Below are positions 31,833 through 36,825 of a stretch of DNA of 36,825 nt, piece after piece (within the stretch, counting starts at the first letter, position 1; each line of letters begins with the position of its first letter). The notes under the pieces are model-generated. The model was not told the origin of the DNA and did no database searches. It was given only the letters and a program-made list of their open reading frames with translations. Source of the stretch: Acidobacteriaceae bacterium (lineage in GTDB: Bacteria > Acidobacteriota > Terriglobia > Terriglobales > Acidobacteriaceae); NCBI GenBank assembly GCA_003140235.1, contig PLJN01000092.1:777-37601 (forward strand). Direction: 5' to 3'. The translations under genes and the position numbers were made by a program.

Positions 31833-31908
31833 TTAAGAAATTTGATTCTCTGCAAAGCCTCAGATCACCAGTTCATGCGCTATGGTACGAAGAGGATCTT
31901 TTCAGCGC

Positions 31909-32814
31909 ATGGATTTCGACCAGCTCAAAACGTTCATCGAAGTGGCCAAACTCCGGAGCTTTTCCCGCGCCGCCGAGAGAGTGCTGCGTTCGCAGCCGGC
32001 GGTGAGCGCGCAAATCCGCCAACTGGAAGAAGAATACGGGCATAGGCTGTTTGACCGGACAGCGAAGGCCGTGCGGCTGACTCCCGCCGGCGAAGTTGTA
32101 TTGGAATATGCGCAACAGCTGCTGAACCTGAAGACCGATTCGGCGCGGGCGATCTCCGAATGGAACGGTATCCTGAACGGGACGCTTTCCATTGGGGCCA
32201 ACGAAGGTACTTTTCTGTACGTGCTGCCCAAGGTGTTTGCCAAGTATCACCGCAAATTTCCCCGAGTGAGGATCAGCGTATATCGCAGTTTTACCCACAA
32301 GGTGAGTGAAAAAGTGGAAGAAGGAGCACTGGATATTGGAGTGCTGACCATGCCGGTCAAATCTCCCAGCCTGAAAGTTGTTCCCGTATTTCGCGACCGG
32401 ATCCTGCTGATGGTCGGGACCGGCAGTCCGCTGTTCAGTAAGCGCTCGGCCACGCTGGAGGAAATCGCCCGGCAACCGCTGATTATCCCCAAGACGGGAT
32501 CGATCAGAAAGCTGATGGAAAAGAACCTCCGGCCGCATCGTGAGCACCTGAACATCACCATGGAACTGACCAGCCTGACCATGATCAAACAGTTCGTGGC
32601 TACAGGGTTCGGCGTGTCGTTGATCTGCGCAAGCTTTGCCAAAGACAATGTGCGCTCCGGGGAAGTTAAGCTGCTGCCGATTGAAGGCCTTGATCTATGG
32701 CGCGAATTGGCGTTGGTCTATCGCCGAGACCGCAGCCTGCCGCGGGTGGCCTCGTCGTTTTTGGAAATTGCCAACCACGAACTGCGACCGGAAAAATCAG
32801 TCGCCAGTAGTTAG
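31909..32814 (+). CDS. LysR-type transcriptional regulator
   Basis: A 301-residue LTTR of normal length. The N-terminal winged helix is clear (MDFDQLKTFIEVAKLRSFSRAAERV, then RSQPAVSAQIRQLEEEYGHRLFDR), followed by the periplasmic-binding-protein-like effector domain (NGTLSIGANEGTFLYVLPKV, LDIGVLTMPV, FVATGFGVSLICASF). ATG 31909 is chosen since the family always begins with a few residues before LxTF; AGAGGA lies 13 bases upstream. It sits directly before gltB on the same strand, recalling GltC, the LysR activator of gltAB in Bacillus subtilis. Control of gltB in response to a nitrogen/carbon metabolite is inferred from position only. Confidence 0.92.
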   Translation: MDFDQLKTFIEVAKLRSFSRAAERVLRSQPAVSAQIRQLEEEYGHRLFDRTAKAVRLTPAGEVVLEYAQQLLNLKTDSARAISEWNGILNGTLSIGANEGTFLYVLPKVFAKYHRKFPRVRISVYRSFTHKVSEKVEEGALDIGVLTMPVKSPSLKVVPVFRDRILLMVGTGSPLFSKRSATLEEIARQPLIIPKTGSIRKLMEKNLRPHREHLNITMELTSLTMIKQFVATGFGVSLICASFAKDNVRSGEVKLLPIEGLDLWRELALVYRRDRSLPRVASSFLEIANHELRPEKSVASS

Positions 32815-32926
32815 TCTGTTGCCATTGACTCGCTAAATCCGCTACTTTGTGGGCAGCGATAACGCAAATCTGGCCTATCCAAATTCCTGATTGTACTTTT
32901 TTCTTCCCGCCAGTTAACACAGAAGG

Positions 32927-35900
32927 ATGATGAATCGTGTCGCTCTCGGACATCCCGACCACGACTCGTGTGGCACTGGCTTCATCACGCGGCTCGGCAA
33001 GCTCGCCACACATGAAGTGATTGATCGCAATGGCCTGCGTCCTTTGCGCTACCAAAGGACTTCCGATGGCTGGCTCGTAGCCGGATCAGAAGCCGGCATT
33101 GCGGACTTCAGCCGAAGAGAAATTGTGGAGCGCCAGCGTCTGGGACCGGGAGAGATGTTGATGGTAGAACTCGCATCCGGCCAGGTCTATCGCAACGGAG
33201 AGCTGCTGCGATCAATCGCCGGTCAAAAAATACGAGGACCGCGCTCGGCGGTGCTCCCCTTGCGCCCGGCCACTGCCGAAACCACCCGCACAGTGGCTCA
33301 CCCGAAGCAGCTTGCGGCTGCGGTTGGCTGGAGTGAAGACCAGCTTCGCCTGTTGTTGCAACCGTTGGCAGAAGGCGGAGAGCCGATCTGGAGCATGGGC
33401 GACGATACGCCGCCGGCGTTCATGTCCAAATTCCGCCGCACGTTGTGGGACTACTGCAAGCAGCGTTTTGCGCAGGTGACAAACCCTGCAATCGATCCAT
33501 TGCGCGAATCGCATGTAATGTCGCTGCGTACGCGTATCGGGCCAGAGTTCATAAGCGACTCGCCTGTATTCAGCGGATCGCAATTACTGTTCCTGCGGGG
33601 ATGCTTCGCGCCTTGCCGCGTGACCGACGTGACGTTTCCTGTCGTTGAAGGAATCCGCGGTGCCCGCGAGGCGCTGGAGCGCATTCGCAGCGAGGTCCGG
33701 AGCCAGAAGTTGATTGTTTTAAGCGACCGCGGCACAAACCAGGAGCGCGCTGCGTTGCCGATCTTGCTGGCAGCGTCCGCGGTGTGGCGCACTATGGTGG
33801 AAGCCGACAAATTCAATGTGCCGTTGGTTGTGGAAATAGCACAGGTCGTGGACACTCACCACGTTGCGCTGTTGATCTCTGTGGGAGCCACAGGTGTGTG
33901 TCCGTTTCTGGCCATGCAACTGGCGGAAGAGACATGCCTCAAAGGCGCGGAAAACCTTAACAAGGGGATCAACGCGGGATTACGAAAAGTTCTCTCACGC
34001 ATGGGCATTTCCACCCTCGCCAGCTATCGCAACAGCCAATTATTTGAAACTGTTGGTCTGGATCGCGCGCTTTGTGAAGAGTTCTTCGAAAGTGCCACGT
34101 CCGTGGCAGAAGAAAAGTCGCTCGACGAGATTCTTGACGACTATCTGCAAAATCATCAAGCGGCTTTCACTGCTGAGTCGGTGCCGCTCAAGGACCTGGG
34201 GCTGTATCGTTTTCGCAAAGGGGGCGAGCGTCACGGGACTTCCCCTGAGCTGATGCGGAAGATGCAGGCCCACGTGAAGGCACATAGTTTGGCGAGCTAT
34301 CAGGAAATCGAAGACCTGGGACAAAAGCGCGAGCCGCTGGCAATTCGAGACATGCTCGAATTGTTACCAACAGAGCCAGTCGATCTCGACACAGTCGAAA
34401 GCGAAGCCGCGATTCTTCGGCGATTCAGCACGCAGGCCATGTCCCTGGGGGCGATCAGTCCGGAAGCGCACCGCACGCTGGCGCAGGCCATGAATTCGCT
34501 GGGTGCGCGCAGCAATACCGGCGAAGGCGGCGAAGATCCCGACCTGTACGCGATGGACCCGCAGTCCTGCAACAAGATCAAGCAGGTCGCGTCCGCCCGG
34601 TTTGGAGTTACCACGGAATACCTGGTGCATGCCCAGGAAATCGAAATCAAGATTGCGCAGGGATCTAAGCCCGGTGAAGGCGGACAACTCCCCGCGACCA
34701 AGGTGAGCCCGTACATTGCACGCTTGCGTCATGCCGTTCCCGGAATGGCGCTGATCTCGCCACCGCCGCACCACGATATCTACAGCATCGAGGACCTGGG
34801 ACAACTGATCCACGATTTGCGCGAAGTGAATCCCAAGGCGCGCATTGGCGTGAAGCTGGTGGCGGGTGCCGGAGTGGGGATCATCGCGGCGGGCGTAGCC
34901 AAGGCTGGCGCGGACGTGATCACTATCAGCGGGCATGACGGCGGTACGGGCGCTTCTCCGCTGAGTTCCATCAAGAATACCGGACTGCCGTGGGAGTTCG
35001 GTCTGCGCGATGCACATCGTACGCTGACGCAATGCGGATTGCGTGGACGCGTACGCTTGCGCGTGGACGGCGGCTTGAAGTTCGCGCGCGACATTTTGGT
35101 TGCGGCCCTTCTTGGTGCGGACGAATTCGGGTTTGGCACCGCAGCGTTGCTGGCAATGGGCTGCGTCATGGCGCGGCAATGTCATCTGAACACTTGCCCG
35201 GTTGGGATTGCCACTCAAGATGAAACATTGCGTATGCGCTTTACCGGCAAGCCGGAGATGGTGATCGCCTACTTCCGGGGCGTTGCGTCCGAAGTGCGGG
35301 CGTGGCTCTCCCGCGCCGGTGCGCGCAGCATCGATGAAATTGTTGGCCACGCGGAGTACCTCAAAGCATCCGGCGCAGACCAGCCGTGGGTAAGGGAACT
35401 GCTGGATCCTATCCCAGCTGTCGAACAGACGCCGCGGCCCGCGCGCCATCGCAACGCATTGGCCAAAGAGATATTGCATACAGCCAAGACCAATCGCTTT
35501 GGCACTTTTCGCATCACGAACCAGGACCGCAGCATCGGTGCTGGTTTGAGTGGTGAGATGTTTCGGTGTCTGACCAAGAACAAGTCGGCAGATCTCATGC
35601 TTGAAGGCGTTGCCGGACAGAGCTTCGGTGCCTTTCTCGTCCCTGGAATCAGCTTGCACCTGTTGGGCGAGGCCAACGACTACGTAGGCAAAGGCCTGAG
35701 CGGAGGCGTCATCGCGATCAGCGCCGGCGCGAAAGCTTCGCTTCGTGGGGACGTGGTGGCGGGCAACACTGTTCTGTATGGCGCGACCTCGGGCGAGCTT
35801 TACATGGCTGGTGCCGCCGGAGAACGCTTTGCTGTACGCAACAGCGGCGCTTTTGCCGTGGTGGAAGGCGTAGGCGACCACGGGTGCGAATACATGACCG

Positions 35901-36331
35901 GAGGAGTCGCCGTGATTCTGGGGCCTGCGGGAATCAACCTGGGATCAGGAATGACCGGCGGGCTTTTGTATATGCTGACCAATCAGTTCGCTGACAGTAT
36001 CTGCAACCTTAACTTCGTGCAGGCCGCCGCTTGCACTGGTGACGAAGAATCGCACCTGCGTTTGGCCCTGGCCCGGCACTTGGAGTTAACAGGAAGCCCC
36101 CGGGCGGAAGCGTTGCTCGATTCGTACCGCGGGCTTTCGTTCACGCGAGTACAGCCCGTGCAACTGCCATGTCCTGTGTCTCAAACCTGGGCGCCGATTC
36201 TGGAACGTCTCAAGCGGTTTGGCGAAAGCGAGACTATCCGTTCAAGAGTCTTCGAATCGCCCGTGCTCGCCAGTCTGACGATGCGATCGAATCAGCCGCG
36301 CAACCGGCCACAACGCTTGCGCGAGTACTGA
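32927..36331 (+). CDS. gltB: Glutamate synthase large subunit with internal deletion in the glutaminase domain
   Basis: A 1,134-residue GltB-type protein; full-length bacterial subunits have about 1,480-1,530. Normal GltB turns 2-oxoglutarate and glutamine into two glutamates. The N-terminus keeps the class II amidotransferase start HDSCGTGFITRLGKLATHEV with nucleophile Cys15, but then jumps at about residue 31 (base 33020) to IDRNGLRPLRY, which normally lies some 330-350 residues later. The intervening core, with its HRG and NGEIN-type substrate residues, is absent. Everything after is intact: central domain (about 120-400), FMN/synthase domain (SLGAISPEAHRTLAQAMNSLG, SGHDGGTGASP), the 3Fe-4S cysteines Cys746, Cys752 and Cys757, and the GXGXG domain. 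ATG 32927 or 32930 could be the start. No gltD lies in the window. The product may use ammonia, need another glutaminase, or be a broken gene; an assembly error is possible. Confidence 0.9.
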   Translation: MMNRVALGHPDHDSCGTGFITRLGKLATHEVIDRNGLRPLRYQRTSDGWLVAGSEAGIADFSRREIVERQRLGPGEMLMVELASGQVYRNGELLRSIAGQKIRGPRSAVLPLRPATAETTRTVAHPKQLAAAVGWSEDQLRLLLQPLAEGGEPIWSMGDDTPPAFMSKFRRTLWDYCKQRFAQVTNPAIDPLRESHVMSLRTRIGPEFISDSPVFSGSQLLFLRGCFAPCRVTDVTFPVVEGIRGAREALERIRSEVRSQKLIVLSDRGTNQERAALPILLAASAVWRTMVEADKFNVPLVVEIAQVVDTHHVALLISVGATGVCPFLAMQLAEETCLKGAENLNKGINAGLRKVLSRMGISTLASYRNSQLFETVGLDRALCEEFFESATSVAEEKSLDEILDDYLQNHQAAFTAESVPLKDLGLYRFRKGGERHGTSPELMRKMQAHVKAHSLASYQEIEDLGQKREPLAIRDMLELLPTEPVDLDTVESEAAILRRFSTQAMSLGAISPEAHRTLAQAMNSLGARSNTGEGGEDPDLYAMDPQSCNKIKQVASARFGVTTEYLVHAQEIEIKIAQGSKPGEGGQLPATKVSPYIARLRHAVPGMALISPPPHHDIYSIEDLGQLIHDLREVNPKARIGVKLVAGAGVGIIAAGVAKAGADVITISGHDGGTGASPLSSIKNTGLPWEFGLRDAHRTLTQCGLRGRVRLRVDGGLKFARDILVAALLGADEFGFGTAALLAMGCVMARQCHLNTCPVGIATQDETLRMRFTGKPEMVIAYFRGVASEVRAWLSRAGARSIDEIVGHAEYLKASGADQPWVRELLDPIPAVEQTPRPARHRNALAKEILHTAKTNRFGTFRITNQDRSIGAGLSGEMFRCLTKNKSADLMLEGVAGQSFGAFLVPGISLHLLGEANDYVGKGLSGGVIAISAGAKASLRGDVVAGNTVLYGATSGELYMAGAAGERFAVRNSGAFAVVEGVGDHGCEYMTGGVAVILGPAGINLGSGMTGGLLYMLTNQFADSICNLNFVQAAACTGDEESHLRLALARHLELTGSPRAEALLDSYRGLSFTRVQPVQLPCPVSQTWAPILERLKRFGESETIRSRVFESPVLASLTMRSNQPRNRPQRLREY

Positions 36332-36464: not shown

Positions 36465-36825
36465 ATGCCCAGAATTGTTCGCTGCGGCCTCATCCAGGCC
36501 AGCAACGCGCGGAGCGCAACCGAACCTTTGGAAAAGGTCAAAGAGGCAATGATCGAGAAGCACCTGAAGCTGATTGATCAGGCGGCCAAAAAAAAAGCCC
36601 AGGTGCTTTGCCTGCAAGAGTTGTTTTACGGCCCGTATTTTTGCGCCGAGCAGAGCACACGCTGGTACGCTCTTACCGAGCCGGTGCCCGACGGTCCCAC
36701 CACCAAACTGATGCAGAAACTGGCCGCCAAACATCGTATGGTGATCGTGATCCCGGTTTACGAGAAAGAAATGACCGGGCTTTACTACAACACGGCCGCA
36801 GTCATCGACGCGGACGGGAAATATC
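36465..36825 (+). CDS. Carbon-nitrogen hydrolase, nitrilase superfamily (3' end beyond window)
   Basis: The frame is open from ATG 36465 to the right edge, 120 codons, with GAGGT five bases upstream. The start MPRIVRCGLIQASNARSA and the segment AQVLCLQELFYGPYFC, with the catalytic Glu52, match the N-carbamoyl-beta-alanine/N-carbamoylputrescine amidohydrolase branch of the nitrilase superfamily; AKHRMVIVIPVYEKE and YYNTAAVIDADGKY follow as expected. The catalytic Lys and Cys lie beyond the window. Such enzymes hydrolyse carbamoyl amides in pyrimidine or polyamine breakdown. It is 133 bases after gltB on the same strand and probably has its own promoter. Confidence 0.87.
   Translation, partial: MPRIVRCGLIQASNARSATEPLEKVKEAMIEKHLKLIDQAAKKKAQVLCLQELFYGPYFCAEQSTRWYALTEPVPDGPTTKLMQKLAAKHRMVIVIPVYEKEMTGLYYNTAAVIDADGKY

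Follow-up and report, generated by a model that had tools for sequence, protein, structure and literature searches.

An acidobacterial gltB frame joined in frame across its glutaminase domain: a probable recent deletion or an assembly error

Has a glutamate synthase gene, gltB, lost most of its glutaminase domain in a living bacterium, or was the domain lost in the assembly of its genome? The window analysed here is a stretch of 36,825 nt from an Acidobacteriaceae bacterium (GCA_003140235.1, contig PLJN01000092.1, 777 to 37,601 of the forward strand), and is exactly the N-free block between the NN at contig positions 775-776 and the NN at 37602-37603. The draft assembly that contains it (G000; 4.9 Mb, 204 contigs, 89% complete) was likely assembled from a mixed sample. 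An open reading frame of 1134 aa on the plus strand (32927..36331) encodes GltB, the large subunit of glutamate synthase, and a LysR-type regulator gene adjoins it on the same strand (31882..32814; PF00126, PF03466). An earlier note on this DNA had claimed that the Cys-bearing N-terminus is joined within one codon to the IDRNGLRP motif, an in-frame deletion having cleanly taken out most of the glutaminase domain. The assembly indeed reads GHPDHDSCGTGFITRLGKLATHEV-I-DRNGLRPLRY across the junction, and the 1134 codons contain no stop or frameshift.

Only positions 345-414 of the 420 in the GATase_2 profile (Pfam PF00310) are matched, by residues 31-100 of the product. The remnant starts with an N-terminal scrap of residues 1-32 (32927..33022, plus strand, as are all features below), delimited by alignment with full-length relatives and carrying the nucleophile Cys at residue 15. 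It is followed by the junction codons Ile-Asp-Arg (33020..33028) and by the retained end of the domain, residues 33-100 (33023..33226). The remaining domains, described earlier as intact, are nearly whole: the central domain (33317..34063, residues 131-379; PF04898, positions 4-277 of 277), the FMN/synthase domain (34241..35323, residues 439-799; PF01645, positions 4-368 of 369) and the C-terminal GXGXG or beta-helix domain (35510..36043, residues 862-1039; PF01493, positions 2-186 of 190). Cysteines 746, 752 and 757 (35162..35197), which we take to be the ligands of the 3Fe-4S cluster, are invariant in 21 aligned sequences. The product scores just above the cut-off of the NCBIfam equivalog NF008730 (1057.9 vs 1047 bits). 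The HRG, HQRxSTN and HNGEINT stretches, present in the congener G008 and in the A. brasilense protein (1ea0), are absent; thus, the Cys is kept and the rest of a GltB-type glutaminase site, including its HNGEINT part, is gone. The Asn-Gly of HNGEINT presumably forms the oxyanion hole, and with these residues missing glutamine hydrolysis should be lost.

G008 is the only other genus member in which a gltB was found. Its product has 1495 aa and is 68% identical over the common part, and a LysR gene likewise lies upstream. Relative to G008, the net loss in the window is 314 codons (942 bp). Of 30 same-type loci, a script could read 26 at both sites (the other 4 were unreadable to it), and compared with these 26 the loss comes to 313-324 codons. 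In the numbering of 1ea0, about 327 residues are missing, 18-344 of the mature protein: residue 32 of the product aligns to residue 345, and the scrap represents mature residues 1-17, as transferred via the alignment of the full-length congener. The displacement of 330-350 residues first proposed was therefore slightly too high.

In G008, the 5' site reads HEV-V-DR-ALVAL and the 3' site GAK-L-DR-NGLRP; the corresponding sequence in the window is HEV-I-DR-NGLRP. Both of these (V/I/L)-Asp-Arg sites of G008 contain the identical 7-mer TGGACCG, in register and with the same codon phase; among the other 25 readable relatives, the two sites have only 2-5 bases in common in register. The ancestor of the window's own gene likely carried a repeat of (T)TGATCG(C), roughly 6-9 bases long and covering the Asp-Arg codons, and the probable shared copy now lies at 33022-33028. 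Recombination at a short repeat had been suggested before, with TGATTGA (33018-33024) as the candidate. The idea of a repeat at the breakpoints has held up as likely, but TGATTGA is merely local sequence at the junction. Since the repeats are in the same codon phase, an in-frame junction needs no selection.

On balance we favour, though by no means firmly, a private and probably recent in-frame deletion by microhomology, with an allele that is tolerated or dying. A join between two short repeats that both encode (V/I/L)-Asp-Arg and have a common codon phase, one of them early in the glutaminase domain and the other at the DRNGLRP motif, would have cost the gene about 942 bp. Most of the class II glutaminase domain would have gone with this piece, the phase of the repeats alone being enough to keep the frame. 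Of the glutamine site, the product retains only the nucleophile Cys; it should therefore be unable to hydrolyse glutamine and could at most make glutamate from free ammonia. The allele is most likely a tolerated first step towards the loss of gltB, as the genus appears to manage without this gene.

There are several data that bear on the private nature of the junction. The same-type set comprises 30 loci (L035, L004-L009, L042 and L126-L147), of which 29 are distinct: L042, from a Candidatus Sulfotelmatobacter draft and the nearest named match, and L137, from a genome of the window's family (G290), represent a single gene. The glutaminase domain is retained in all 30, in one case (L136) interrupted by NN. 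A family search covering 398 genomes gave matches in 338, and among the matches listed only the window's own starts at residue 1. From these listed matches, 13 stretches whose frames were short or odd were examined, and the junction of the window was found in none of them; a further stretch, L194, of 100 bases, was uninformative. Those at or near a contig end (L151, L153, L155, L156, L158, L192 and L193) do not show the whole domain, and gltB is broken at N runs in L149, L150, L152 and L154. In L157 (G022:C178), gltB is split mid-gene by a frame change around 3846, and its glutaminase part is present. In L191 (G175:C215), about 37 codons are missing from within gltB without any mark, together with a frame change, around 3593; this loss ends just before the DRNGLRP motif, near the motif at the window's junction. 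The earlier note had proposed looking for the same junction in related genomes, and neither the 30 loci nor the 13 odd stretches show it. It had also proposed alignment with the GltB of close relatives, which gave full-length genes in the relatives examined. Such full-length genes had been expected to tell against a deletion; they do exist, but in other species, which makes the junction private and does not refute it.

The remaining protein is as well conserved as that of the full-length congener. Of 332 columns that do not vary among 26 relatives (a count that omits the N-interrupted L136, L144, which is cut by a contig end, and L137, the same gene as L042), 11 are changed in the window and 15 in the full-length congener. 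The changes in the window include Ala to Ser just before the Cys and Leu to Ile at the junction. Decay of the remaining protein was considered and rejected, there being no excess of changes at invariant columns. The dN values to two outgroups are nearly equal for the window and the congener (0.371 v 0.364 and 0.351 v 0.339). A dN/dS test on these domains, as previously advised, is less helpful: dS to the congener is about 1.8, and pairwise dN/dS is little informative because synonymous sites are near saturation. Equal conservation fits a recent event and an assembly error equally well. An AlphaFold2 model based on 21 sequences has a mean pLDDT of 75.6, with most of the body at 70 or above and residues 1-37 and 1081-1134 below 50. 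Foldseek aligned it to 1ofd, 7mfm, 1ofe, 2vdc, 1ea0, 6s6s and 1llw with TM-scores of 0.83-0.87 by query length. The model thus predicts a preserved fold for the body and gives no confident structure for the scrap; a model of a deletion product is no proof of its stability.

Is gltB needed in this genus? The genus set has 9 members, namely G000 and its congeners G001-G008, and in 7 of the 8 congeners searched (G001-G007, completeness 81-100%, E 0.001) gltB was not found. A full-domain match to PF00208, the glutamate-dehydrogenase type, is present in 9 of 9. These genes likely encode glutamate dehydrogenase, in a family that also includes other amino-acid dehydrogenases. The pattern suggests that gltB is dispensable in the genus, where a glutamate-dehydrogenase-type gene is present. 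Because the genus apparently has no need of gltB and has such genes, the allele is most likely on its way to loss.

The small subunit GltD, as the partner of GltB, was sought with TIGR01317 in 61 genomes and scored above cut-off in 19 of them. None of the 9 genus members is among these, nor is any of the 7 genomes in that sample whose gltB is at least 59% identical (G008, G055, G011, G034, G017, G014 and G012). The best TIGR01317 match in G000 (E 2e-48; C89:45149-46456, on the same contig as gltB) is below the cut-off. As full-length relatives of the same type are without GltD too, its absence does not distinguish the window. In the GltB of G008, there is a gap relative to the ferredoxin-dependent 1llw after the GEGGED motif, and the spacing in the window's GEGGEDPDLYAM is similar. 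The FMN-domain insertion typical of ferredoxin-dependent glutamate synthases, known as the ferredoxin loop, is therefore not seen. This acidobacterial gltB type (L035-L042 and the window, 31882-36331) is linked to a LysR gene, which a motif search placed next to gltB in 7 of 8 loci inspected. In one relative (L039:4574-13093, G017:C43), the gltB region also adjoins frames resembling, by eye, sulfate/sulfite assimilation genes, a hint that bears on the regulator and the electron donor.

An error of assembly is possible, and we take it seriously without expecting it to be true. Under this explanation, the organism has a full-length gltB, two pieces of which the assembler or a gap closer joined over a short shared sequence, and about 942 bp were dropped unmarked. 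The fragmentary state of the 204-contig draft is in its favour, as are the frequent N runs, nearly all of 2 bases (35 in 324 kb sampled; 102 in 1.05 Mb). Moreover, joins with lost sequence are close by. The gene after gltB is short by a net 126 bp (42 codons) at an NN join that follows the gltB stop by 495 bp, and comparison with G004/G001 indicates net losses of 126, 61, 0 and 18 bp at four joins 0.5-1.7 kb past the stop. The frame-changing gltB loss in G175 means that unmarked losses occur in drafts of the window's family, and gltB breaks at N runs in G268, G336, G357 and G185. These joins and the G175 case count against a real deletion, as does the sharing of no more than 2-5 bases in register between the two sites of the other 25 readable relatives; the repeat of the window's own ancestor is a reconstruction. 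On the other hand, the window is N-free, and NN was written even at the join with nothing missing, where the flanks abut, so that the assembly would seem to mark its joins. Skipping about 942 bp over 6-9 bases would also far exceed the net losses at the four scars.

A survey for unmarked losses points the same way. It compared 1.05 of the 4.9 Mb of G000 with 800 kb of G008, using 568 G008 frames and the G008 gltB as queries; 129 had a match, and 53, including gltB, were orthologue-like. Four cases were flagged: two losses at N runs (60 and 129 bp), both interpretable; a 20-residue gap near a contig start, with no N; and a 2500-residue query with overlapping matches, which is not interpretable. 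Among the 53 genes, the two interpretable losses of at least 60 bp within paired matches are thus both at N runs. The survey passed over gltB itself, whose short 5' flank cannot reach the E-value used, and is blind to such events. Taking together a tolerated or dying allele and one kept for function, we judge, rather than compute, a real deletion to be more likely than not.

The gene cut by the nearest join is the next one downstream of gltB. It encodes a carbon-nitrogen hydrolase, begins inside the window and has its NN join just outside it (36465-36825 and L032:1242-1991); it is 42 codons short relative to its G001 orthologue, with the frame still open. Past the window on contig C89, L032:1242-11994 contains frames that resemble, by eye, pyrimidine-degradation genes, namely the carbon-nitrogen hydrolase, a dihydropyrimidine-dehydrogenase-like frame and a hydantoinase-like frame, and similar DNA is present in G001 and G004.

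Might the truncated protein be supplied by a separate glutaminase? No second GATase_2 (PF00310) was found in G000, where the sole match is the remnant itself; the same search matched in 12 of 14 control genomes. A search of G000 with the piece missing relative to G008, run without a positive control, was empty, and no second GltB was found in the assembly. The separate GATase_2 gene of a split glutamate synthase is thus not seen in G000, and the stand-alone partner glutaminase previously envisaged did not materialise. This absence is weak evidence, as an assembly 89% complete could omit a piece of about 1 kb.

It is unlikely that the deletion is real and that its product is selectively kept as an ammonia-using glutamate synthase without a glutaminase. 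In favour of such an enzyme are the 1134 codons free of stops and frameshifts, the conserved FMN domain, cluster cysteines and central domain, and the match of the model to solved glutamate synthases; the downstream carbon-nitrogen hydrolase is also a kind of enzyme able to release ammonia. However, the form is absent from all 30 homologous loci, PF00208 genes are present in the genus, and no GltD is above the family cut-off there. Moreover, the presumably useless N-terminal scrap is still recognisable, suggesting youth, and the hydrolase is not beside gltB in G008 and is present without any gltB in G001 and G004. A fixed deletion giving a glutaminase-free, ammonia-using enzyme of the GltD-less, LysR-linked type, perhaps fed with ammonia by nearby catabolism, is very improbable; if true, it would amount to a domain removal made by nature in an enzyme that tunnels ammonia. 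The ammonia-using enzyme, the dying gene and the misassembly had all been listed as outcomes at the start, and the list was well drawn. It is most likely that the junction stems either from a recent deletion private to this genome or from misassembly, and that no new kind of enzyme is involved.

If the deletion is real, nature has produced a GltB stripped of most of its glutaminase but with an untouched synthase half, in which one could ask whether the tunnel and the FMN half function by themselves. Should the junction instead be an artefact of assembly, it cautions against inferring domain losses from fragmentary drafts. Either way, judging from this genus, gltB may be dispensable in the presence of a glutamate-dehydrogenase-type gene.

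Comparison with known systems may help to place the truncated protein. It resembles A. brasilense GltB (1ea0, 2vdc, 6s6s; E about 1e-258) in its central, FMN/synthase and beta-helix domains and in the cluster cysteines, and differs from it in being without residues 18-344 of the mature protein and in coming from a genome with no GltD above cut-off. It is of the same type as the acidobacterial LysR-linked, GltD-less gltB products of G008 and its relatives (56-68% identical), all of which, unlike the window, keep the glutaminase domain in 30 of 30 loci. GltB mutants with an inactive glutaminase can use ammonia, and they carry point changes in a whole protein. By analogy, the activity predicted for the window's product would be ammonia-dependent only, but here most of the domain is gone. 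Among open-licence papers, we found no report of a GltB that is without its glutaminase or has ammonia-dependent activity. In passages of PMC8097209, the glutaminase domain is given as residues 1-422, the ammonia tunnel is said to be lined by the central and FMN domains, and Archaea are noted to have single-domain relatives; a passage of PMC5775586 puts one archaeal frame at one third of the length of the large subunit. As far as these passages describe them, the archaeal single-domain frames are like the window in having a synthase part without a fused glutaminase (PMC8097209, PMC5775586). They differ from it in being separate single-domain frames, whereas the window keeps the central and beta-helix domains, and its glutaminase appears to have been cut from a fused gene.
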